This document shows positions 12,761 to 27,649 of a stretch of DNA of 36,934 bases, piece by piece. Each line of letters starts with the position of its first letter. The first letter of the stretch is position 1. This DNA is from a virus. Made by a program: the position numbers and the translations under genes. The notes below the pieces were generated by a model. That model saw nothing but the letters and a program-made list of their open reading frames with translations, was not told the DNA's origin and ran no database searches. The stretch spans positions 1 through 36,934 of the IMG/VR virus record IMGVR_UViG_3300028607_001511. One strand, written 5' to 3'.

Positions 12761-13327
12761 TTACAATCTAAACAATCTAAATCTCTCTATTAAACTTTTT
12801 ATTTCTTGACCTGTCTTTTTTGTGGCTTTCTCTTGTCTCACAACCATCTGACAGTGACCAAGATCATCATCATATATAAACCCTGCACCCCTCAAGGCAT
12901 CAATCATCCACTTGTGTGAGCCATAGAGATTGTCTTGATCCATCATCCTCTTTCGATATGATGTCAAAAGTAAAAGATATGACATGTCCTCTGATGCTCT
13001 TTTGATGTTTGCTTTGTCCATGCAGTGTCTGATGATCCATGTCCACTGTTTTTTTTGTTTGTGTGTTTTTGACCAGTGTGATCTGATGGAGATGTTGAGT
13101 GTTGGGACAATTGCCATCTTGCCCCACTCCTTTTTTGTTAGGACTATGCTCTCACCATCTTTGTCCTTGACATTGTAGTGGTTCAGGAGTTCCTGTCTAC
13201 CGAGCCATGACCCTATATATTTGTTTACAATCTCAACTCTATAATTATCATCAAGCATTCCATTGATCAGCAGTTCAACTTCAGGTGGGATTTCATCCTT
13301 GTTGTAGATTTTCTTCCAGTCACTCAT
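12761..13327 (-). CDS. RusA-like Holliday junction resolvase
   Basis: A 188-residue protein. The C-terminal half has the RusA signature: a basic segment, then MDQDNL (D130, D132, N133), K139, 'MIDALRGAGFIYDDD' (D143, D153-D155) and a final helix. These acidic residues match the metal site of RusA family endonucleases, which cut four-way junctions. The N-terminal ~75 residues are an extension beyond the ~120-residue core. It lies between recombination genes and terS, where RusA often resolves branched DNA before packaging. No good Shine-Dalgarno site precedes ATG 13327. Confidence 0.7.
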   Translation of the reverse strand: MSDWKKIYNKDEIPPEVELLINGMLDDNYRVEIVNKYIGSWLGRQELLNHYNVKDKDGESIVLTKKEWGKMAIVPTLNISIRSHWSKTHKQKKQWTWIIRHCMDKANIKRASEDMSYLLLLTSYRKRMMDQDNLYGSHKWMIDALRGAGFIYDDDLGHCQMVVRQEKATKKTGQEIKSLIERFRLFRL

Positions 13328-13409: not shown

Positions 13410-13790
13410 TCATGACACAGTGGTTGTATTTTTTAAGACACCAAGAGCCTCTCCAATCACTTCTCTGATCTCACTTGGTGATGCAAGTTTTTCCTTTATC
13501 TCTTTTTTTGTCAAATTTCTCTGCTCTGGCACATACAGCATCCTCAACCCTCCCTTGTATTGTGCCTTGATATGACCCCTGTCAATCAGTGCCTTGACCC
13601 AGAGTGAGACAGTTGTCTTTGACACTTCATATAATTTTGCAAAATAGCCATTGGTTGCGTAGCAATAGCCTTTTTTGTTGGACAGTGCTGTGATCTCTGA
13701 AAACAAGACCTTTGCACCCATTGAAATTGTTTTGTCATATCTGACTTTCGCAGTCAGAATTGAATAGTATGCAGGTTGTCTTTTCAGCAT
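13410..13790 (-). CDS. Helix-turn-helix replication/regulatory protein
   Basis: A 126-residue winged-helix protein. 'YYSILTAKVRYDKTISMGAK' followed by 'YATNGYFAKLYEVSKTTVS' and 'WVKALIDRGHIK' matches the N-terminal HTH domain of phage replication initiator/DnaD-like proteins (HTH_36 type). The usual C-terminal replication domain is missing or very short (ends at residue 126). AGGAGACTGAA precedes the ATG. It may load host replication proteins or act as a regulator. Confidence 0.6.
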   Translation of the reverse strand: MLKRQPAYYSILTAKVRYDKTISMGAKVLFSEITALSNKKGYCYATNGYFAKLYEVSKTTVSLWVKALIDRGHIKAQYKGGLRMLYVPEQRNLTKKEIKEKLASPSEIREVIGEALGVLKNTTTVS

Positions 13791-14783: not shown

Positions 14784-15386
14784 TTATTTAGTCACTGCTG
14801 TGAAAGATGGTTCTTGTTGTGTCACCTCAATTCCATCAGGAATTTCTCCAGTTGCTTTCATGTATTCCTTGACACCTGCCTTTGACACTGTGATCTTTTT
14901 GGTCAGCAGTTTCATTGACCATTCAGATGTCAATGTTGATGTGCCAACCCAGTTGATCACAATCTTTGGATCAGTGATTTCAACCTTTTCCTGCCTGACC
15001 CTCATCTTGAGTGATCCATTTGGCAGATTCATGGTCTTTTGTTCTTGACCCATCATGAACAAGTGCAACCCCCGTGACAGGAATGCAATTGTCTTGTCCC
15101 GTTTTGCAACTTCCCTGTCCATGAAATCAGTTGCATCTTTGATCTGTGCGTTTCCAACTGTCACAACATTCTCTATTTCATCCCTCAACTTTTTAATCAC
15201 ATAGAGATATTTGTTGGCTGTTTTCTGTCCCTCTACCACTTCATCAGTGGTGATGGGATCATCCAGATCAAGACTGCCAATGACCTCATAAAGAAATGCA
15301 TCCTCTGGATCATTGTCATGGTTCATGTTCAGGTTGACCAAGTTGTCTGCAGTTTGGTCAAGGTCTTTTTCTGACATTGTGCTCAT
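14784..15386 (-). CDS. Gam/Gp157-like host-nuclease inhibitor family protein
   Basis: A 200-residue protein from ATG 15386 (MSTMSEKDLDQTADN), which follows GGAGACTGAA; the open frame extends upstream but without a start context. It is an acidic N-terminus, then a long helical region (KLRDEIENVVTVGNAQIKD), then 'NLPNGSLKMRVRQEKVEI' and a C-terminal 'YMKATGEIPDGIEVTQ'. This order is that of Mu Gam-like DNA-end-binding proteins and of siphovirus Gp157. Either would protect linear phage DNA from host exonuclease. Its neighbours are a Rad52-like annealing protein and a zinc protein. Confidence 0.6.
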   Translation of the reverse strand: MSTMSEKDLDQTADNLVNLNMNHDNDPEDAFLYEVIGSLDLDDPITTDEVVEGQKTANKYLYVIKKLRDEIENVVTVGNAQIKDATDFMDREVAKRDKTIAFLSRGLHLFMMGQEQKTMNLPNGSLKMRVRQEKVEITDPKIVINWVGTSTLTSEWSMKLLTKKITVSKAGVKEYMKATGEIPDGIEVTQQEPSFTAVTK

Positions 15387-15387
15387 T

Positions 15388-15831
15388 TCAGTCTCCTTTG
15401 AACAAAGAAGTCTGGCTTGTGCCAAACCTCTTTGCTTTGATTTCTGTGTTTTTGGATTTAGGGTCAAACCAACCTGCACCATCACAGTTCTGGCACACAT
15501 TGCCAAACTGGTCTGCTCCCTTGCCTTTGCAGTCCTTGCACTTGACATTGTCCTGCCAAGTCATTCTCTGCATTCTGGCAATTTTAGCAGGGGAGTCAGC
15601 ATTGACCTCATGAGATGCCCTGAACTGCAGACCATCCACTACAATGCCCTCCCCTGCTTTGATGATTTTCTTCCACCTGTTGAAATTCCTGTATTCAGGA
15701 CAGACATCAGTCTTTGCCCATGAGCCATCATCCATCTTGAATGTGATCCTGATGAACCTTGACCCATAGTTCTTGAGTCCTGCTCCTTTTGCAGGTTTCA
15801 GATTGTGGATTTGTTGAATCATGCCTCTCAT
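15388..15831 (-). CDS. DnaJ-type zinc-binding protein
   Basis: A 147-residue protein. Residues 98-120 contain CxxCxGxG-x7-CxxCxGxG (C98, C101, C113, C116), the DnaJ-like zinc motif. The N-terminal ~75 residues are beta-rich (RFIRITFKMDDGSWAK). ATG 15831 overlaps the Rad52-like stop (ATGA). There is no J domain. It is probably a nucleic-acid or protein partner of the annealing protein; that role is inference. Confidence 0.6.
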   Translation of the reverse strand: MRGMIQQIHNLKPAKGAGLKNYGSRFIRITFKMDDGSWAKTDVCPEYRNFNRWKKIIKAGEGIVVDGLQFRASHEVNADSPAKIARMQRMTWQDNVKCKDCKGKGADQFGNVCQNCDGAGWFDPKSKNTEIKAKRFGTSQTSLFKGD

Positions 15832-16766
15832 GCTTGAATGATGGTCATTGCCAGACCCTGAACCTGCTCAAGTGTGAGTTTATCATGGACAAAACTCCAT
15901 GACTTTTCATGCATCCTTGTCAGGATTTCCTTTGAGGCACGTTCCTGTCTCTCTTTTGCAATCTTGATTTCAGAACCATCTTCTCTCTTGGTGCTCATTT
16001 TAGAGATTGTCCAGATCAAGAGATCAGCACCAATGTCTTTCCAAGCAGTGTGCTTGTTGTCGTTGGTGTATCCAATCTCCTGCCTTCTGCCATTCAGTTT
16101 CCAGTCCTGAAAACCGTTGCTGACCTGATCTCCAATTGCAAATTCTGGATCAGTGGAATACTGCAGATCATCAACAGTGTCATTCATGTCTGCCTCATCC
16201 TCATTGTTGTTGAGCACTTCATGGTATTCACCATGTTGCATCTCATGCCTGATCCCTTTCAGATCAGCCTCTGTTTTCACAGCATCTGCAAGAGCCTCTT
16301 TTTTCTTTTGTTTCGCTGATGGTGGTGTCCAATTCCAAGGTGCTTTCCATGATCCATCTGCTTTCTTTTCACAATCCACCCAGTGGATGTCCAGATCATA
16401 AAGATCAGCACAGATGCCCCAAGTGAAACATGCTCTCTTGAATGCATCTGAAACCTCTCCCTTGTCCTTCTCAAAATCAGAAGGCACACCACAGTCTTGC
16501 TTGGTCACTTTCGTGCCATCAGGAAATGTGATTGTGAGTGAACAGAACAGCACACCTTGTGTGTCCCTGTTGTAAGTAACCTCCCACCCATGAATGCCAA
16601 CTGCCTCGTCCAAGATTTTCCTTGGCAGTCTTGCATCAGTATATGCAACCATTGTGGCTTTGCCAGTTGCCTGATTGATGGATTGACATTTCCAATGGAT
16701 TTCATTTTCTGGGGTGAGTTGTTGGAGAGTGCCTTGAATGACATCCCAACTTTTTTCTTCAGTCAT
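15828..16766 (-). CDS. Rad52/Rad22-family single-strand annealing protein
   Basis: A 312-residue protein from ATG 16766 (MTEEKSWDVIQGTL), which follows GGAGACAAAC; the longer open frame to 16838 lacks a site. Residues ~10-130 match the Rad52/22 core: 'YTDARLPRKILDEAVGIHGW' then 'DTQGVLFCSLTITFPDG', 'DCGVPSDFEKDKGEVSDAFK' and 'RACFTWGICADLYDL'. This family anneals complementary single strands. The C-terminal 180 residues are acidic and then basic and may bind partners. It heads the recombination operon, directly after a strong terminator and an ATATGATA site. Confidence 0.75.
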   Translation of the reverse strand: MTEEKSWDVIQGTLQQLTPENEIHWKCQSINQATGKATMVAYTDARLPRKILDEAVGIHGWEVTYNRDTQGVLFCSLTITFPDGTKVTKQDCGVPSDFEKDKGEVSDAFKRACFTWGICADLYDLDIHWVDCEKKADGSWKAPWNWTPPSAKQKKKEALADAVKTEADLKGIRHEMQHGEYHEVLNNNEDEADMNDTVDDLQYSTDPEFAIGDQVSNGFQDWKLNGRRQEIGYTNDNKHTAWKDIGADLLIWTISKMSTKREDGSEIKIAKERQERASKEILTRMHEKSWSFVHDKLTLEQVQGLAMTIIQA

Positions 16767-16832
16767 GTTTGTCTCCTTTGTTTGTGTGTGTATTGATCCC
16801 ACCTGAATGCTCATCATCCAGAGTGGAATTAA

Positions 16833-16840
16833 TATCATAT
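16833..16840 (-). promoter_or_regulatory. ATATGATA site before the Rad52-like operon
   Basis: The minus strand reads TTGTAAATTATATGATATT, 67 bases before the Rad52-like ATG and just after the intrinsic terminator at 16875-16907. TATGAT resembles a -10 box. The same octamer recurs in five other intergenic places. Confidence 0.45.
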
Positions 16841-16968: not shown

Positions 16969-17874
16969 TCAGACTCCTGCGTCTTCCAGTGCCTCAAGCA
17001 CAAGGCTGTAGTTGTCAGCAATCCTTCTCAAGTTTAACTTGTCATTGCTTTCCACTTCCAACCGTTCCTCATATTTGACAAGGTCAATTTCTGCCTCTAT
17101 TGCATCAGTCACAATTTCAGTCAGGTCTGATGGTTCAAGTGCATCAATCTCCCAACACTCTGTCCCAAAGGTTTCATTGTATCCACCTGCTCTGGAGTCT
17201 GTGGCTTTGGCAAAGTTGGGTGGTGGTGAATGTAGTTCAACCTGATCCATTGTCAAAGCAATGTGTTTGACCTCCAGAGTGAACTGATCCTGATTGAACT
17301 CACTGACCCTGTCATCACAGTCCCTGATCATGTCCAATCCACTGGGGTCATGGTCTCCCATGTAAAGGATCACATTGTGGCTGTGTGGCTTGAACCTGTT
17401 GAAGGCATCAAACATGGCAGTGATGGATGAATATCCTCTATTGACCATCAGCCTGACATGGTATCTGGAGCAGACCCTGCCAACGATTGCTGACAGTGCC
17501 TCTTTCTCAAGCCAGACCTCAACATTGATCTCCTGATCCTCCTGCCTGTTGACCCTGTATTGTCTGGCTGTGTCATCAAGTGCATCCCACACACTGTCTG
17601 CCCAGTAGGGGAGGCGAGGTCTGCGTAGTCTGTCCTCAATTGAGTCCCAGTCTATGAGTCCACCCATCCTGCCCTTGCCACAAAGATTCATCACCTTTTT
17701 ATATTCAGCTTTCGTGTTTGGGATGATGTCCCTTGCAACCATTTGATAGTATAACTGGCGAAGGGTCAAACGGAGTCCCTGTGCCCTGTAGGAATCAAGA
17801 ATCTCGTTGATGGTTGTCAACTTGATGAGATTCTTTTTGCTGATCCCTGCCTTTGCTCTGAAAGACTGTTTCAT
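16969..17874 (-). CDS. TOPRIM-domain protein, Spo11/TopoVI-A-like
   Basis: A 301-residue protein. The N-terminal third (LTLRQLYYQMVARDIIPNTK, then 'VMNLCGKGRMGGLIDWDSIE') looks like the winged-helix part of TopoVI-A-type proteins. The TOPRIM core follows: 'VEVWLEKEAL' with E123, 'MVNRGYSS', and 'VILYMGDHDPSG' with D174 and D176. There is no TopoVI-B partner, so it is more likely a nuclease or nicking enzyme than a topoisomerase. ATG 17874 overlaps the HAD gene stop (ATGA) after GGAGACAG. The family call is based on the E...DxD metal motif and flanking pattern. Confidence 0.65.
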   Translation of the reverse strand: MKQSFRAKAGISKKNLIKLTTINEILDSYRAQGLRLTLRQLYYQMVARDIIPNTKAEYKKVMNLCGKGRMGGLIDWDSIEDRLRRPRLPYWADSVWDALDDTARQYRVNRQEDQEINVEVWLEKEALSAIVGRVCSRYHVRLMVNRGYSSITAMFDAFNRFKPHSHNVILYMGDHDPSGLDMIRDCDDRVSEFNQDQFTLEVKHIALTMDQVELHSPPPNFAKATDSRAGGYNETFGTECWEIDALEPSDLTEIVTDAIEAEIDLVKYEERLEVESNDKLNLRRIADNYSLVLEALEDAGV

Positions 17875-19105: not shown

Positions 19106-19741
19106 TCAATTTTTGTCACATATATTCAACCTGAAGACTTTCAATATATTGCACACCAAAAACCCTGTGACCCACAATGGAATCATGACAATCACCCAAG
19201 CAAGTTTCATGAGACAAAGCAAGGAGAACCATATCCAGAAAAAGGTCATGATGGTTGTTGCAAATCCAGTTGAGGTGTAATGCATCCACCATCCACACAC
19301 CATGAGTTTGAATTCATGATCTCGACCATACCTTGCAAACAGCAAATCAAATCTGTGGTTGCCATCAATGAGTCTGTATTTTTTATCTGATTTGATGTAT
19401 CCAGACTTGAACATATCTGGAGCATAGCCATGTTCTAAAAGAGACTCCACAACTGTGTGATATTTGTTGGCTTTGCCAAGACCTCTGTTTTTATATTTTT
19501 TGAAATTCAGTTTATTCCACCACTGTGGATGCAGTGGGTTTTTTCTCGGAGGCAGGATTGATTCAACATACTGGATTGCATCATCAATGTCTTGTGTGTG
19601 CCATAGCCTCACAAGATGTTCAATGTTTTTCTTATGATATGTGTCCACCTTCATTTTGTTTTTTGAAAATGTCAGGACTCTTTGGACTTTGATGTCAGAA
19701 AGTTTTACAACAACGACCTCATTTTTTTTTGAATTATTCAT
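19106..19741 (-). CDS. ParB-like domain protein with C-terminal membrane anchor
   Basis: A 211-residue protein. Residues ~10-150 are soluble, with 'YRLIDGNHRFDLLFARYG' (DGNHR at 126-130), the GxxR/DGNHR signature of ParB/sulfiredoxin-type domains. Residues ~159-203 are strongly hydrophobic with two likely membrane helices (IMTFFWIWFSLLCLM and WVIVMIPLWVTGFLVC). There is no Shine-Dalgarno site; the ATG follows an AT-rich TATTATATAGCAT, so the message may be leaderless. It flanks the putative origin, so a role in placing or segregating DNA at the membrane is attractive but unproven. Confidence 0.5.
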   Translation of the reverse strand: MNNSKKNEVVVVKLSDIKVQRVLTFSKNKMKVDTYHKKNIEHLVRLWHTQDIDDAIQYVESILPPRKNPLHPQWWNKLNFKKYKNRGLGKANKYHTVVESLLEHGYAPDMFKSGYIKSDKKYRLIDGNHRFDLLFARYGRDHEFKLMVCGWWMHYTSTGFATTIMTFFWIWFSLLCLMKLAWVIVMIPLWVTGFLVCNILKVFRLNICDKN

Positions 19742-20014
19742 ATGCTATATAATAGTTTTTTTTTATTAAAGATTTATATTATTCTGTTTTAAGATTTCTT
19801 AAAGACCCCCATTTAAGTTTTCTTATATGTGCGTTGAAGTTATCCACATAAAAGCCAAAGTTATCCACATGTTTTCCACATCCTCACTTGCCACTCATTA
19901 ACCTCTTGACCCATCTGCAAAGAATGCAGTGAGCATCAGACCATCTTGATAACCTGATCAAATAGACATCAAGAGCAATGTGTAGATTGGACATGAGCCT
20001 GTCTAATTTGGCTC
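19742..20014. other. Putative replication origin (DnaA boxes plus AT-rich stretch)
   Basis: A 273-bp intergenic region. Two perfect DnaA boxes TTATCCACA (19840-19848, 19861-19869) and one near match TTTTCCACA (19872-19880) lie in the same direction, spaced 21 and 11 bp. Next to them is a very AT-rich stretch (19741-19800) with GATTTATATTATT-like and AAGATTTCTTAAAG segments resembling an unwinding element. The phage encodes no polymerase or helicase, so a host-DnaA origin would make sense. This is the only place where I found the box. Confidence 0.65.
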
Positions 20015-20230
20015 TCACAGCACTTTCTCCTCATGTGGGTGGTATCTATGACCAAAGATGAATGTGGAGCACATTTCAATGAATGCCACTTTCCTTGTGA
20101 TTCCCCTCTCTTTGCAAACTTGATCAAGGTCTTTCACAAGTTTTGGCTCAACATTTCTAAACAAGATTTGAGATTTGGATTTGTCCACCTGCCTCTGATA
20201 AACAGACCCCTTGTTGTTTTCTTGTGCCAT
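20015..20230 (-). CDS. Small ribbon-helix-helix-like DNA-binding protein
   Basis: A 71-residue protein. The layout is a strand (SQILFRNV), helix A (EPKLVKDLDQVCKERG), a turn, then helix B (TRKVAFIEMCSTFIFG), as in Arc/CopG-type ribbon-helix-helix dimers. AAAGGAGAACAGC precedes the ATG. It lies between a terminator and the putative origin. It could regulate the ATATGATA sites or the origin, which is inference. Confidence 0.5.
   Translation of the reverse strand: MAQENNKGSVYQRQVDKSKSQILFRNVEPKLVKDLDQVCKERGITRKVAFIEMCSTFIFGHRYHPHEEKVL
20061..20090 (-). terminator. Withdrawn placement; see terminator at 20261-20290
   Basis: No terminator is claimed at this position; the hairpin described for this gene pair lies at 20261-20290. 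This entry carries no annotation weight. Confidence 0.
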
Positions 20231-20260: not shown

Positions 20261-20290
20261 AAAAAAGGGACACATTTCTGTGCCCCTTTT
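20261..20290 (-). terminator. Intrinsic terminator after the DUF932-like gene
   Basis: On the minus strand GGGGCACA - GAAA - TGTGTCCC - TTTTTT forms an 8-bp stem (one G-U pair) with a GAAA tetraloop and a six-T tail. It lies 24 bases after the stop at 20314. On the plus strand the same site has an A/C mismatch, so it is directional. The stem is nearly the same as in the terminator at 23123-23153. Confidence 0.8.
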
Positions 20291-20313: not shown

Positions 20314-21063
20314 TTAAGCCTGTGCAACAATGATCCCATTTGGTGTCTTGACGAACTTCTCAGTGAACACATTGTGCAGAGCAAGTCTCCTGCTCATGGC
20401 ATGTGTTGGATCACTTTCAAGTTTGAGTGCCTCTGTGCAGGAATTAAACAAACCCCACAGGCTGTCAGTTGGGTGATCATAGTCAGGCTTTTTCCACTGC
20501 TCAAATGCCTTGGAAAGTTGGACAGGTTTCAGGATTCCTGAACCTCTCAAGATTCCCAAGATTTCCCAACCTCTCTGTTGTGTGATCTTGACACCTTTCA
20601 TGTCCTCTGCATCCTGCAGATGCTTATGGAAAACGGTGGGAGCATTTTTCAATGCCAGTTCAGTGGTTGCCTTGATTGCATCCCATCCATTCATGGTGTG
20701 CTTTTTTGACATCACAATGTCACCTGACAGATCAAGGTTGTCACAGATCATCACTGATGTTCCGATTGCAACACCATATGGTAGTGTCTTGTCATATCCT
20801 TGCCTGTAAGCAATTGCCAGTTCCTGCTCATCTGATGTGTTTGAGAATGTCAACATCCCAAACAACCTCTGACCTTTTCTGGCAAGTCCAAAGACATTAT
20901 CTTTGAAAACAAATGACTTGTCCAGAATGCCTTTTGCATAAGACTCCACCATTGTGATGACCTCTGCATGAGGTGTTGGGAAAAAAGTTGGGGTGATCTC
21001 TGGAACAGCGATTGCCCTCACTTCTTTCATTGTTGCTTGGTTGCAAAATATCATGTTGCTCAT
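20314..21063 (-). CDS. DUF932-like phage protein
   Basis: A 249-residue early protein. The segments 'AIAYRQGYDKTLPYGVAIGT' and 'VMICDNLDLSGDIVMSKKHT' match the core of DUF932 (phage/plasmid-like) proteins, in which an S/GYD-K-s..g...G..v.vCdNl..sg.....k+HT pattern is typical. Molecular function of the family is not established. It is the first gene leftward from the divergent control region, with AAAGGAGACTGAAAA before the ATG, and has its own terminator, so it is probably strongly and early expressed. Confidence 0.6.
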   Translation of the reverse strand: MSNMIFCNQATMKEVRAIAVPEITPTFFPTPHAEVITMVESYAKGILDKSFVFKDNVFGLARKGQRLFGMLTFSNTSDEQELAIAYRQGYDKTLPYGVAIGTSVMICDNLDLSGDIVMSKKHTMNGWDAIKATTELALKNAPTVFHKHLQDAEDMKGVKITQQRGWEILGILRGSGILKPVQLSKAFEQWKKPDYDHPTDSLWGLFNSCTEALKLESDPTHAMSRRLALHNVFTEKFVKTPNGIIVAQA

Positions 21064-21574: not shown

Positions 21575-22018
21575 ATGAAAACAGAAGAACGACTGACCAA
21601 ATGGTTAACTGCTCCCAACTCACAAATGGCATTTCAAATAATCATCCCAGAGCTTGGACTTTGCAGGTGCGTGTTTGACATGGAAGATGACAAGGGAAAA
21701 TACAAAGGGAAAAAAGCCCACAGGAATTGGACACTGTGCAGACAGGATCACTCCAATCCAAATTTTGCCCACTATCTGCAATGTAATGATTGCAATTATC
21801 AATGGGCAAAACAATACTGGAAACATGATCACCTTGCTGATTTCTATGGCATGGCTGAAAATGTGTTTTCATTCTTGGTTGCATTGAGAGATTCCAATGT
21901 GACAAACATGTATGGTGCATCTCCCTACTTGCAGAACAAGTTTGGCTTTGCCAGAGCAACAGCCGAAAACTACCTGAAAGCATGGATGGACTCCCACAAA
22001 ATGGAGGAACTGATATGA
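21575..22018 (+). CDS. Unknown Cys/His-containing protein, rightward operon gene 1
   Basis: A 147-residue protein from ATG 21575 (MKTEERLTKWLTAPNSQ), after AAGGAGATTGAAC. It has several Cys/His residues (LGLCRCVFD, TLCRQDHSN, YLQCNDCNYQW) that could bind zinc. No family recognised. It is the first gene of a four-gene plus-strand unit, opposite to the rest of the genome, so it may act very early or take part in control. Confidence 0.6.
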   Translation: MKTEERLTKWLTAPNSQMAFQIIIPELGLCRCVFDMEDDKGKYKGKKAHRNWTLCRQDHSNPNFAHYLQCNDCNYQWAKQYWKHDHLADFYGMAENVFSFLVALRDSNVTNMYGASPYLQNKFGFARATAENYLKAWMDSHKMEELI

Positions 22019-22269
22019 TTGGAATTCCAAGTGGTTTCAAAAAATGTGGTTATAGAATAACAACAGCAGAAATCACAGATGTTCAGGGGTGGACTCTTGC
22101 CAAGGGACAATGTTTTTTTGTCCTTGAAATGAGCATTGAAAGACCCTCTGGATTTCCTGTGAACATTGCTGTTGACAATGGCTTTGAAGATGATGCCATG
22201 TTTCCAATCACTGCAATTGATGAAAGCTATTTTCTTAATCAAACAAAGGAGGAAAAGGAAAATGAATAA
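22015..22269 (+). CDS. Unknown protein, rightward operon gene 2
   Basis: An 84-residue protein from ATG 22015 (MIGIPSGFKKCGYRITTAEI). The ATG overlaps the previous stop (ATGA). Beta-rich, with an acidic tail ending in KEEKENE. No family recognised. Confidence 0.55.
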   Translation: MIGIPSGFKKCGYRITTAEITDVQGWTLAKGQCFFVLEMSIERPSGFPVNIAVDNGFEDDAMFPITAIDESYFLNQTKEEKENE

Positions 22270-22483
22270 ACCCATGACACACATCATTGAACTGTTCCTG
22301 AACAACAGCATAATGATGAACGTCTTTGGATTGGTGAACCTTGAATCAGTCAGGTCACAATTGAGACTTGAGGGATGCAAGAGAATTCCCAACACAAAGA
22401 GATTGAAAAGGATCATCAGAGAAATCTTTGATGATAAAATCACAAACAGTGTCTCATTCAGGGACACACAACAAGGAGACTGA
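22262..22483 (+). CDS. Small basic helical protein, rightward operon gene 3
   Basis: A 73-residue protein (MNKPMTHIIELFLNNSIMMN), after a near-ideal AAAGGAGGAAAAGGAA site; it overlaps the previous gene by 8 bases. Predicted to be mostly helical, with a basic middle (CKRIPNTKRLKRIIREI). No family recognised; size and charge would suit a DNA- or protein-binding regulator. Confidence 0.5.
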   Translation: MNKPMTHIIELFLNNSIMMNVFGLVNLESVRSQLRLEGCKRIPNTKRLKRIIREIFDDKITNSVSFRDTQQGD

Positions 22484-22487
22484 AAAC

Positions 22488-23093
22488 ATGACTGATCAAA
22501 TCAAACAGTTTGTGAGGGAAACCATTGGCACATCCATTGGAGTCCTGCATACAGACGAACATGCACAACTGAATCTGAACCTCTCTCTCTGTCCCCTATC
22601 AGATGAGTGGATTGCAAAGATCAAATCTGGCAACCTGATCATTGTTGAAAGGAGAACAATGGGAGGTGAGACCTATGAGACCAACTGTGGAATCACACAG
22701 GTTGGAGGATCAGGTCTCTACAACATGATCCCTATGCCAACCCACAGGACAATGCTTTGTGCAAGTGAGCAAAGTGTGATGAGAACTGGAGGAGACCATG
22801 ATGGAGTTTTGGTCTGTTTCAGATACCTCTCAAAGGAGGGCATTGAATACATCATGAATGATCCCATGATCAAGGCAAAGAAAAACAGTCTTGACCTTGA
22901 TCTTGAATGGGTTGATCAACTGCCAGTGTTTCCAAAATGTCTGGCAATGACTGAATGCAATGGTGATCTCCCAAAGGATGCTGTGGAGCAGATGATGATC
23001 AACAGAGGTCTTGATCCAAATGTCAAACGATACCCACCAACTGACTTGTTTGCAAATCCAACAGGTTCAGAACACTGGATCATGCCAAACTAA
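22488..23093 (+). CDS. Unknown protein, rightward operon gene 4
   Basis: A 201-residue protein from ATG 22488 (MTDQIKQFVRETIGTSIGVL), after AAGGAGACTGAAAAC. It is acidic, with mixed strands and helices (LIIVERRTMGGETYETNCG). No catalytic motif seen. It is the last gene before a strong terminator. Confidence 0.6.
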   Translation: MTDQIKQFVRETIGTSIGVLHTDEHAQLNLNLSLCPLSDEWIAKIKSGNLIIVERRTMGGETYETNCGITQVGGSGLYNMIPMPTHRTMLCASEQSVMRTGGDHDGVLVCFRYLSKEGIEYIMNDPMIKAKKNSLDLDLEWVDQLPVFPKCLAMTECNGDLPKDAVEQMMINRGLDPNVKRYPPTDLFANPTGSEHWIMPN

Positions 23094-23280
23094 ATCACAC
23101 TCACACCTGTGATGAATACCAGAAAGGGACACAGCAATGTGTCCCTTTTTTTTGTCACCATGACCATGAGGTAAGGATGGAGGTTGAGAACTGGGACAGA
23201 GCATGGTGACTGGAATGCCCTCTACAGGCTTAAATTTGCGTCATATAGCCACTTTTATTCCACAGTGGTGTCCTTTGTCA
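23094..23280. other. Convergent intergenic region
   Basis: 187 bp between the ends of the rightward operon and the leftward late transcript. It contains the terminator at 23123-23153 and otherwise nothing that I can assign. Confidence 0.5.
23123..23153 (+). terminator. Intrinsic terminator of the rightward operon
   Basis: AAAGGGACACA - GCAA - TGTGTCCCTTT is an 11-bp perfect stem with a GCAA tetraloop and an eight-T run. It lies 30 bases after the stop at 23093. On the minus strand the stem is followed only by TTTCT, so it is weaker for the late transcript. The same GGGACACA stem occurs in the terminator at 20261-20290. Confidence 0.9.
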
Positions 23281-24360: not shown

Positions 24361-24873
24361 TCATGACTCCAATTTTGAAACTGCCCTCCTGAACCAACCA
24401 AACCAGAATCTCATTTGTTGTGGTTTCTTCTGGACAATTTTGCTGTAGTGCAAAACATTGAATGCAACAAGCCTGTCAATTTCCAGACTCTGACATGCCT
24501 TTGCTGTCATCCTCCCTATTCTGCCATCCATAGTGATGAGACTGTCTTTCTGTTTTCTGTTTTTGTTGTTGGTTGCCTCCTGCAGTATCTTGACACCTCT
24601 CCTGCCTTTGTTCACTACCATGTCAAATGTGATTCCCTGCAGGTGTTCAGGCAACATTGAAATCTTGTATTTCCTCCAGTAGAATTCCCAGTAAATTTTG
24701 ATTGCATCTGCTTTTGTCAGATCAAGAATGTTGGTGTCAGGAAAGGCTCTCTTTGAGATTCCAAACTTGGTCTCTCCACCCAAATCATTTGGGTCTTTGC
24801 TATAGCCACCCTCATGCTCCAAGACTTTCTCAACTTCTTTCATGAAAATTTTGCTATATGCCAGATCAGTCAT
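24361..24873 (-). CDS. Endolysin, GH108 N-acetylmuramidase
   Basis: A 170-residue peptidoglycan hydrolase. The catalytic region is LEHEGGYSKDPNDLGGETKF then GIS (E21 in the EGGY motif), the GH108 signature. 'YWEFYWRKYKISMLPEHLQG' and a C-terminal peptidoglycan-binding-like part (SLITMDGRIGRMTAKACQ) with 'FWFGWFRRA' follow. There is no signal peptide, so it needs a holin to reach the wall. ATG 24873 shares its A with the previous stop (TGATG). Confidence 0.85.
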   Translation of the reverse strand: MTDLAYSKIFMKEVEKVLEHEGGYSKDPNDLGGETKFGISKRAFPDTNILDLTKADAIKIYWEFYWRKYKISMLPEHLQGITFDMVVNKGRRGVKILQEATNNKNRKQKDSLITMDGRIGRMTAKACQSLEIDRLVAFNVLHYSKIVQKKPQQMRFWFGWFRRAVSKLES

Positions 24874-25319
24874 CAGCCTCTCTCGCTTGTGAATCTCTCG
24901 TCATCTACACCAACCCACATCTGTCTTGTCTTTGCTCCCTTCATGATTCCAATGTGCCAGTTCTGGTCATTGAACAATGAGAACTTTGACAGATCATATA
25001 TTTGCATGTGTTTGTCAAATGTCTTTGGGGTCTTTTTACCATCTCTGAAAAACAGTGAGCATCTTTTTCCATCAGCCATTGCCACTCTCGTTCTGTTTGG
25101 CTTGTTGTAGTTTCTCTCATGGACTTCAACATAGATGTCCAGATCAGAATCTGCTGTGGGTATTCCCCAACAATAACTTCCAACAACCCACAGGTCAATC
25201 ACCTCTGCTGTTTCATAGGTTGTCTCTGTGTTGATTAAAGAAATGAGTTCTATAATAAGATCAGACCTTTGCTGTTCAGTCCAGTCCTCAACTGTCTTGG
25301 TCATCTGGCTCACCGTCAT
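24873..25319 (-). CDS. Pol-beta-type nucleotidyltransferase
   Basis: A 148-residue protein from ATG 25319 (MTVSQMTKTVEDWTEQQ), which overlaps the fibre stop (ATGA). 'IDLWVVGSYCWGIPTADSDL' then 'DIYVEV' gives GSxxxG...SDxD (G47, S48, D59, D61), the nucleotidyltransferase core. A third carboxylate is not obvious. Similar minimal enzymes are seen in toxin-antitoxin (MNT) and tRNA/antibiotic-modifying families. Its place between tail fibre and endolysin genes in the late transcript is unusual; it may modify a host or virion component. Confidence 0.65.
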   Translation of the reverse strand: MTVSQMTKTVEDWTEQQRSDLIIELISLINTETTYETAEVIDLWVVGSYCWGIPTADSDLDIYVEVHERNYNKPNRTRVAMADGKRCSLFFRDGKKTPKTFDKHMQIYDLSKFSLFNDQNWHIGIMKGAKTRQMWVGVDDERFTSERG

Positions 25320-25855
25320 GAGACATCCCAACCTATGATGAGACCATCTTTGATGACTATAGTGTGCCTCTCACCATCATCATCAATAAAAGAAGCTGTG
25401 TCAGTAGTTCCTGAATGTCCTGTGGATGCTTTGAAGGTGTCACCACACTGCACATCTTGACCTGACAGTGTCATTGCAAGGTTTCCACCTGTTGAAAATC
25501 CAATTGAATTTGACGATTTTCTATACATCCCAGTGTCAGTGTCTCCTGTAAATGCATGTGCAGGTTTTGAGACATCTCCGTATCCTGTAATGACTGCACC
25601 AGAAAATGTGGCAGTGCCTCCAGTAAGTCCCAAAGCCTCCTTATCTGATCCACCAATTTTGGTGCTGAATTGTAGTTTTCCATCTTCAGTGCCATTTGAT
25701 ACATCAGCAGTCAGCCCTTTGATCCAACCATATTGAGTATTTTCATTTGCTGAATTATCTGCATAAAAAGAAATCTGTCCTATTTGGTCACCATCGGTGG
25801 CAGTTGCTCTGTTACGTTTGAACTGAATTATAGAAGGACTTGAATTGTCATATGA
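25316..25855 (-). pseudogene. Orphaned C-terminal part of the tail fibre
   Basis: An open frame of ~177 residues without a start codon; the in-frame stop TAA at 25858-25856 lies in the inverted repeat. It reads DNSSPSIIQFKRNRATATDG, then 'QIGQISFYADNSANENTQYG' and ends 'HTIVIKDGLIIGWDVS'. This is typical fibre tip sequence and has no other source. It is probably the continuation of the fibre at 25940-27649, cut off by the inverted segment 25852-26068. It could be a switched-off cassette, a decayed gene or an assembly error. Confidence 0.65.
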
Positions 25856-25892
25856 TTACTATGAGAACAAATTCTGACTCATCATCTGCTGA
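25852..25892 (+). repeat. Inverted repeat, left copy (41 bp)
   Basis: An exact reverse complement of 26028-26068. It begins ATGATTACTATGAGA and ends CATCTGCTGA. A further four bases (GTCA) match after one mismatch at the outer edge. Confidence 0.95.
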
Positions 25893-26027
25893 TGCTCTTA
25901 TTCTTGATACATCCCAAAACGCCACATTTACTGGGGCAGTCACAGTAAATGGTTCAAATGTGACTGTAGCCAATGCATCAAATCCATACATATATTTGAA
26001 TGATACAAGTGGAGGGGCAGGAATTTT
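25893..26027 (+). other. Misoriented tail fibre segment between inverted repeats
   Basis: 135 bp whose plus strand encodes fibre-like protein (ALILDTSQNATFTGAVTV, then 'ASNPYIYLNDTSGGAGIF'), although the fibre gene is on the minus strand. The phrase ALILDTSQNATFTG closely resembles ALTLDQNQNATFVG inside the same fibre. Inverting the segment between the 41-bp repeats would put it in frame after QMITMRTNSDSSSA. Confidence 0.8.
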
Positions 26028-27649
26028 TCAGCAGATGATGAGTCAGAATTTGTTCTCATAGTAATCATTTGACCACCAATTAAAGTCAAACCTGCAGAGA
26101 GAGATTTCACCACATTTCCAGACAGATTAAGATATTGAGTCCCACCGCCATATATTTTCAAACTATCATTATTTTTTCCAAGAACAACATCACCAACAAA
26201 TGTGGCGTTTTGATTTTGGTCTAATGTCAGTGCTGTTGTAGTCCCTCCAGTTTGCAGATTAAGTATCCCATCTCTATGATGATATATTCTGGATTTAGTT
26301 GTGCCAGAAGTCTGAAAAATTAACTCACCATATTCACCATTTGAATTCAGAGCATCCAGATATATGCGAGAAGAACCACCACCTGTTGAATCTAATGTAA
26401 GGGCAACATTTGCGTTTTTCTCTATTAAGACATCACTCTGGAATGAGGTCAATCCTGTTGCATCAATGTGAAATGCATCTGAACCATCTTTCAATTTGAA
26501 ATATCCAATTCTTGTGGACAGGTTTCTATATCCCATCTGCAGAGGACTGATGATGGTGTTGTCTTGTGCTTGGTTGTAATAACCACCCACCAATATATAT
26601 GCATCATGGTTTGCATCCATTGCTCCCTGCGTTTCAGTAAATGATGCAACTTCACCTTGACCATTCTTTTCCACCATGAAAGTCCCATCTTTCAGATGAA
26701 ATGTTCTTTGTGGGTCTGTTTTATGAACCCCTATATTGCCATTGATTCCTATAAAAAATCTATTTGTCAATGATGAATCTTCTGTTGTTTTTGCTGTATT
26801 AAAGAAAAATCCTGCAGTTGCATCTTCGCCAGTAGAATCTGAAGTAAATAGAACAAAGTCTAAAGCACCCCATGATGTGTTTGGTTTTGTTAGTGTCGGA
26901 GCACTTGCAGACTCTGCAGTAATTACTCCATTTTGTGTGATATGTAGAACTCTACCATTGGAGGAAAACTGCCTAAATTGAACTTTCGTTGAACCATCCA
27001 ATGTGAGGCTTGGATTTGCTTGACCATTGTTTACTGAACTGTCTTGATTTACAATGACTAAATTTGGTTGAATAGTGGTTTCACCACCACCATCAATGGT
27101 CAATCTTGTTGTGTCATTTGTTTTGATTCTAAATGCTCGGGCATCCATCACAGACAATTCTGCATCTGCTCCACTACCTGCTTGTATCCTAAATCTGTTT
27201 GCAGTCCCACCATCAGCACCCATATTTATTTGTGAACCTTTCACAAGAAAAGCCCCACCTGAAGTGAGACTCCCTGATGTTTCTGTTGAACCATCTGAAC
27301 CAATGGTCAACCTTGTATTGGTGCTCCCATTAGTAAAAAATGTTAAGTCTGATTCATCTTGATTCCCTATTGCAGTGTTGCCACCTGCTCCCTCTTTTTC
27401 AATAGTAAAATAAGCATATCCTTCACCTGATGTGCCAAAATCACCACCATCTGGATCAAGCCAAATTGTTGACTTTCGACTTCCTGCAGTAGCATGTCCT
27501 ACTGCATAAAACCCACCTCCTGCTCTTTGAGATGATGTGCCTTGAGCAGTCCTGAAAATAGAATTCATTGCTGTATTGGTTGCAACTGTTAACACCCCTA
27601 CAGATGCATCCTGATCCTGCAGTAGAACCTTTTTCCATTTCACTGCCAT
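25940..27649 (-). CDS. Tail fibre protein, C-terminus disrupted by an inverted segment
   Basis: A 569-residue product as it stands. The N-terminus MAVKWKKVLLQDQDASVG resembles that of the fibre at 28128-29399 (MAVTWKKVL), so both probably attach to the same tail site. The body is beta-rich fibre sequence with repeated 'LTIDGGGETT/LTLDGS/LTLDSTGG/LTLDQNQNATF' units. At about residue 541 the coding sense is lost: after QMITMRTNSDSSSA come EKFLPLHLYHSN and other antisense-like residues to a stop. The remaining tip lies at 25316-25855. AAGGATGATCTGAA precedes the ATG. Confidence 0.8.
   Translation of the reverse strand: MAVKWKKVLLQDQDASVGVLTVATNTAMNSIFRTAQGTSSQRAGGGFYAVGHATAGSRKSTIWLDPDGGDFGTSGEGYAYFTIEKEGAGGNTAIGNQDESDLTFFTNGSTNTRLTIGSDGSTETSGSLTSGGAFLVKGSQINMGADGGTANRFRIQAGSGADAELSVMDARAFRIKTNDTTRLTIDGGGETTIQPNLVIVNQDSSVNNGQANPSLTLDGSTKVQFRQFSSNGRVLHITQNGVITAESASAPTLTKPNTSWGALDFVLFTSDSTGEDATAGFFFNTAKTTEDSSLTNRFFIGINGNIGVHKTDPQRTFHLKDGTFMVEKNGQGEVASFTETQGAMDANHDAYILVGGYYNQAQDNTIISPLQMGYRNLSTRIGYFKLKDGSDAFHIDATGLTSFQSDVLIEKNANVALTLDSTGGGSSRIYLDALNSNGEYGELIFQTSGTTKSRIYHHRDGILNLQTGGTTTALTLDQNQNATFVGDVVLGKNNDSLKIYGGGTQYLNLSGNVVKSLSAGLTLIGGQMITMRTNSDSSSAEKFLPLHLYHSNICMDLMHWLQSHLNHLL
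26028..26068 (-). repeat. Inverted repeat, right copy (41 bp)
   Basis: An exact reverse complement of 25852-25892. On the minus strand it encodes MITMRTNSDSSSA in the fibre frame. Read the other way it has an open frame SADDESEFVLIVI. Confidence 0.95.

Follow-up and report, generated by a model that had tools for sequence, protein, structure and literature searches.

In E. coli oriC, the DnaA box that adjoins the DNA-unwinding element points towards that element, and P1 oriR, like other plasmid replicons that combine a Rep protein with DnaA, also has an AT-rich stretch with tandem DnaA boxes next to it. How replication starts in small tailed phages without helicase, primase and polymerase is usually summed up as 'uses the host'. 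With a defined and conserved element of 140 bp, such host use becomes testable, as the element predicts both the host protein that is contacted and the bases that are important.

The order described for BUS and oriC is a box, a spacer and the DnaA-trios, and a tandem pair of boxes has been described in bacterial origins (PMC8287927). According to a survey from 2021, 15% of bacteria are without DnaA-trios (PMC8287927). Among phages, mutation of the two DnaA sites beside the AT-rich lytic origin of P1, oriL, had no significant effect, whereas the AT2 region was needed (PMC9948254). The locus analysed here, an intergenic gap with three DnaA boxes (Table 1), is a conserved DnaA-box element of ordinary appearance, placed in a genomic context that is unusual.

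Table 1. Features of the gap and of the early region (positions in the window; L008 is the diverged relative).
Feature	Position	Strand	Basis
126-aa winged-helix (HTH_36) protein	13410..13790	-	Pfam HTH_36, E 7e-12; homologous to initiator N-terminal half
RusA-like Holliday junction resolvase	12761..13327	-	Family scans
Mu Gam-like end-protection protein	14784..15548	-	Family scans
Erf/Rad52-type single-strand annealing protein	15828..16838	-	Family scans
Topo VI A/Spo11-type protein (Mini-A-like)	16969..17874	-	phrog_6247, E 7e-84
211-aa protein, ParB-type motif LIDGNHR, hydrophobic C-terminus	19106..19741	-	Sequence; opens the leftward recombination operon
Intergenic gap with the element	19742..20014	.	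ORF list; flanked by two leftward genes, the ParB-motif membrane gene and the small RHH-like gene
Easily melted AT-rich block (candidate DNA-unwinding element)	19742..19783	.	Stability minimum; 83% identical in L008
DnaA box 1, TTATCCACA	19840..19848	+	Sequence; L008 has TTCTCCACA at this position
DnaA box 2, TTATCCACA	19861..19869	+	Sequence; TTATCCACA in L008
DnaA box 3, TTTTCCACA	19872..19880	+	Sequence, 1 mismatch; TTGTCCACG in L008
71-aa small protein, RHH-like by inspection	20015..20230	-	72% identical in L008
249-aa conserved protein	20314..21063	-	85% identical in L008; distant relatives in Salinibacter and Microcoleus phages

Genome and replication genes

The window (the whole stretch of DNA analysed, 36.9 kb) is a single virus record whose first 144 bases are repeated exactly at its end. 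The genome is complete and circularly closing, with about 36.8 kb, and the terminal redundancy over 144 bp implies that the gene set is complete as well. Nearly all genes are oriented leftward. Megablast of 25 kb of the window against the phage collection gave no match, and the search of bacterial genomes with the terminase gave no relative.

The original prediction held that the phage encodes no polymerase, helicase or primase. Indeed, none was recognisable in family scans of the proteins, and six-frame searches of the genome returned no match to the DnaB_C helicase, the DnaG zinc ribbon or PolA; in the large unassigned frames at 33-36.9 kb, which sit among tail genes, neither a polymerase nor a helicase family was recognised. 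A plus-strand protein with a C..H..C..C pattern (21575-22018) was considered as a primase zinc domain and rejected, since it had no DnaG zinc-ribbon match and gave a poor structure prediction (pLDDT 43), and since the plus-strand cluster has no counterpart in the diverged relative L008. This cluster (21575-23090) is the only one on the plus strand, and its absence from L008 makes it probably an accessory insertion. Two near-identical sequences resembling hairpin terminators, GGGACACA...TGTGCCCC, lie at 20261-20289 and 23123-23151 in opposite orientations, one after each early transcription unit.

What the original picture overlooked is an initiator-like protein with a winged helix (Table 1). 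Aligned over its full length, it shares 41% of its residues with the N-terminal part of the CL1 initiator (315 aa), and among annotated phage replication initiators its identity to the N-terminal, DNA-binding part is 41-60%. The initiators of Lactobacillus CL1, Staphylococcus PMBT9 and Lactobacillus PMBT4 have 243-315 aa, with DnaB or a DnaI-type loader encoded immediately after them, and the other viral HTH_36 proteins recovered are mostly of 209-315 aa (L184 and L186 are shorter or doubtful frames). The protein is highly conserved in this phage and in all of its close relatives, with a length of 109-126 aa; it lacks the C-terminal half of the initiators as well as a helicase or loader neighbour, and the next gene is RusA wherever visible. 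It is a phage initiator of which the half that binds DNA is left, and may assist DnaA or only regulate transcription. Full-length HTH_36 initiator loci in other viral contigs, which are partial, had no DnaA-box pairs, while the shortened form, known from one lineage and partial contigs, was accompanied by such pairs wherever the gap was covered. Although drawn from one lineage and partial contigs, this comparison suggests that DnaA boxes may have replaced the lost half of the initiator.

The leftward operon starts with the ParB-motif gene and continues with HAD, Mini-A, Erf and onward. The Mini-A-like protein carries the invariant motifs RQLYYQ (catalytic tyrosine region), E-K and GDHDPSG (TOPRIM), and its best fold match in the PDB is topo VI A (prob 1.00, E 4.6e-4). 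It could make breaks that prime recombination-dependent replication.

Outside the early region, inverted repeats of 46 bp (98%) at 25847-25892 and 26028-26073 flank 135 bp in the tail-fibre region. On the opposite strand, these 135 bp resemble the coding sequence of a fibre, and they contain the end of the fibre gene (25940-27649); the whole (25847-26073) has the appearance of a tail-fibre switch that works by inversion, or of an inversion made in assembly. Beside the endolysin, 24873-25331 encodes a small protein with a nucleotidyltransferase fold, for which the matches were below the Pfam cut-offs.

DnaA boxes and an easily melted block in the gap

It had been predicted that two perfect DnaA boxes and a third one lie in an intergenic gap, in one direction and 21 and 11 bp apart. 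The sequence confirms this arrangement, with start-to-start steps of 21 and 11 bp from 19840 through 19861 to 19872, and no frame is open across the 273 bp of the gap (19742-20014) on either strand. No perfect box other than the two copies of TTATCCACA occurs in the 36.9-kb record, and with the third box, which has one mismatch, these two form the only such cluster in the genome. Near-boxes are not in excess over chance genome-wide (10 found, 13.4 expected) and thus the unusual feature is their clustering; three TTNTCCACA within 60 bp were seen in 0 of 200 third-order Markov simulations. The repeat search of 12.7-23.5 kb gave no further tandem, iteron-like array. At the element itself, no IHF consensus site was found and GATC sites are few.

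An AT-rich stretch was also expected beside the boxes, and the easiest-melting DNA of the genome is indeed found there. By duplex stability, the least stable segments of 50, 100 and 150 bp in the whole genome start at 19732, 19728 and 19678, respectively, with the minimum at 19728-19830, on the 5' side of the boxes; the AT content on their 3' side is 57%. The block lies 5' of TTATCCACA, so that the boxes are oriented away from it. No DnaA-trios were found, taken as a run of three NTN within 16 bp on either side of the boxes.

GC skew had been proposed as a check of origin function. At four-fold degenerate sites of the leftward genes, the skew was -0.154 to the left and -0.053 to the right of the site, a test limited by the one-sided gene order. 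The difference is weak, has the sign opposite to that expected for a bidirectional origin, and is confounded by this gene order. Skew therefore lends no support to a bidirectional origin at 19742-20014, and was discarded as origin evidence.

Conservation of the element

Only two related contigs, reached through the ParB-like, 249-aa and RHH-like proteins, cover the gap. One of them is near-identical (L003/L021), and the single informative diverged relative is L008, with a terminase 86% identical. There, the three boxes read TTCTCCACA, TTATCCACA and TTGTCCACG at identical steps of 21 and 11 bp, and from the AT block through the third box the two sequences align with zero indels. Box bases are conserved at 24/27 positions, against 5/14 in the spacers (Fisher p 0.0008). 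Nucleotide identity reaches 83% in the AT block, with 96% in its 23-bp core (19750-19772), and 89% in the boxes, whereas it is 49% in the adjoining ParB-motif gene and 46% in the remaining gap. The boxes of L008 are weaker, as two depart from the consensus; the main change is at position 3, and the TCCAC core is retained in all three. Since the block, the positions of the boxes and their spacing were kept while the gene and the remaining gap diverged, the element formed by block and boxes is under selection, as judged from one diverged relative with weaker boxes. Absence of the boxes from close relatives, which would speak against the original prediction, was not what we found, as they are conserved in position in the sole diverged relative.

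Coding constraint was considered as a reason for this conservation. In L008, an open frame of 87 aa (2313-2576) runs through the boxes and overlaps the stop of the RHH-like gene, but in the window the frame is closed by stops. As there is no open frame over the boxes in the window, coding does not explain their conservation.

The labels given to the flanking genes in the original prediction are less secure. Both were given by inspection and have no support from Pfam or PHROG, in which the 211-aa protein had no match, although its LIDGNHR motif is retained in L008 in a protein with an overall identity of 36%. The best match of the RHH-like protein, below threshold, was the CopB-type PRK13702 (E 0.08). 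As to a ParA/ParB partition pair, no ParA match was obtained, and of a ParB the ParB-like gene shows just the LIDGNHR motif, next to a hydrophobic tail.

DnaA-box arrays in other viruses

In IMG/VR, box pairs at a distance of 11 bp are common (at least 120 stretches), and blast matches to the array included unrelated viruses with boxes at steps of 20-21 and 11 bp, in a search that favours such spacing. Co-directional boxes at 21 and 11 bp may be a recurring viral arrangement. The BUS/DnaA-trio test showed no enrichment in 113 other viral box pairs. The arrays of Vibrio phage BD1 (L154:8002-8042, at the end of a linear record) and of gokushoviruses (L162:562-644 and L163:604-665) are mostly outside annotated genes, with one of them inside a hypothetical gene.

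We also considered whether boxes are linked exclusively to a missing helicase, and rejected this, since 10 of the 28 larger box-bearing records encode DnaB. DnaA boxes are therefore not a mark of helicase-less phages, and the reasoning of the original prediction, from a missing replisome to DnaA, fails as a rule because box clusters are also found in phages with their own DnaB.

Interpretation of the element

In our favoured view, the gap at 19742-20014 acts in cis in replication, most likely as an origin that depends on host DnaA or is assisted by it, and we give this an even chance. Host DnaA would bind the three co-directional boxes at 19840-19880 and oligomerise, the adjoining AT block (about 19730-19840) would melt, and host DnaB with the host loader would be recruited via DnaA, so that the circular genome would be copied by the host replisome. 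Later recombination by Erf, Gam, RusA and possibly the Mini-A-like enzyme may yield concatemers for packaging. The winged-helix protein may help DnaA at the origin, or its part may lie in transcription only. Direct recruitment of host DnaA, as originally proposed, is partly supported: the conserved boxes, the melting minimum, the lack of a recognisable replisome and of any other array in the early region speak for it; against it stand the initiator-like protein, the boxes that face away from the block, the missing trios and the lack of support from skew.

The same boxes could instead belong to a DnaA-responsive promoter, controlling the leftward operon about 100 bp away in step with the host cell cycle or DnaA level, with the AT block as promoter DNA. 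The first gene of this long operon begins 99-139 bp downstream of them, and AT-rich promoter DNA would likewise be expected to be conserved. Moreover, control of transcription by DnaA boxes close to promoters is well known, as for lambda pO (PMC3985674) and for uvrB (PMC6015884). However, a consensus scan of the gap showed no sigma-70-like promoter in either direction, and the single block of lowest stability in the genome exceeds what a promoter needs; we regard this explanation as possible, although somewhat unlikely. We find it unlikely to a greater degree that opening of the AT block, or of another site, and recruitment of the host helicase are the work of the winged-helix protein, the DnaA boxes being accessory and dispensable. 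Its resemblance to the DNA-binding half of annotated initiators and its strong conservation in all relatives would fit such a role, and P1 oriL offers a precedent in which AT2 is needed and the two DnaA sites are not (PMC9948254). Nevertheless, the protein lacks the C-terminal half found in its homologues and their partner, a helicase or loader; its gene has no iteron array nearby, and the boxes that would be dispensable are under selection.

Two further explanations seem highly improbable. The boxes might serve as a titration or nucleotide-exchange site of the datA/DARS kind, binding host DnaA in order to restrain or disturb host replication; a cluster of three boxes could offer room for several DnaA molecules, and the ColE1 DARS has three boxes in 70 bp (PMC5835720). 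Yet there are just three boxes per genome and no IHF consensus site, and the conserved AT block would be left unexplained. The other, to which we give equally little credence, is an operator with a chance resemblance to DnaA boxes, at which a phage repressor would act, for instance the RHH-like protein encoded beside the gap. Direct repeats at 21 and 11 bp, which share one helical face, would suit an RHH repressor, and the RHH-like gene is adjacent and conserved; however, two exact 9-mer consensus boxes with a third at one mismatch are unlikely for another specificity, and the changes in L008 fall mainly at position 3 and spare the TCCAC core of all three boxes.

If DnaA is the direct recruiter at a host-dependent origin, such phages would replicate in dependence on the host cell cycle, and the orientation of the boxes away from the block would be a functional origin geometry outside the oriC models. 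It is conceivable, and we put it forward tentatively as a rather doubtful proposal, that a lineage of tailed phages handed origin firing to host DnaA: the initiator would have shrunk to its DNA-binding half, with loss of the helicase-loading half and of the partner genes, and the lineage would have acquired and kept a compact origin between genes, made up of an AT block and three boxes and reversed relative to oriC.

Comparison with known systems

As in bacterial oriC and BUS (DnaA-boxes 6/7 and trios of B. subtilis), TTATCCACA boxes lie here beside an easily melted region, and a close pair is 2 bp apart with the better match upstream. Unlike in those origins, the boxes face away from the AT block, there are no trios and three boxes only, and the phage element is accompanied by neither a dnaA gene nor a clear skew switch. 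The oriR type of P1 shares with it the tandem DnaA boxes adjoining an AT-rich stretch. However, we found no iterons, Rep or ParA, as no Rep family match was obtained and no tandem iterons besides the boxes.

Among viruses, Vibrio phage BD1 has co-directional boxes at exactly 21 and then 11 bp, and gokushoviruses and Lactococcus phage AM4 likewise have boxes in one direction at 21/11-bp steps, in each case from a search that favours this spacing. All are unrelated to the present phage; BD1 has its own primase/helicase, and gokushoviruses encode Rep. The HTH_36 initiators of CL1 and PMBT9 are homologous to the 13410-13790 protein in their N-terminal winged helix, but have 243-315 aa against 126 here, where no DnaB/DnaI gene follows. 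P1 oriL also combines DnaA sites with an AT-rich stretch in a phage that uses the host replisome, with the difference that oriL lies inside the initiator gene repL, while the present element lies between genes, at a distance of 6 kb from the sole initiator-like gene. The element is probably a variant of host-dependent phage origins rather than a new class.
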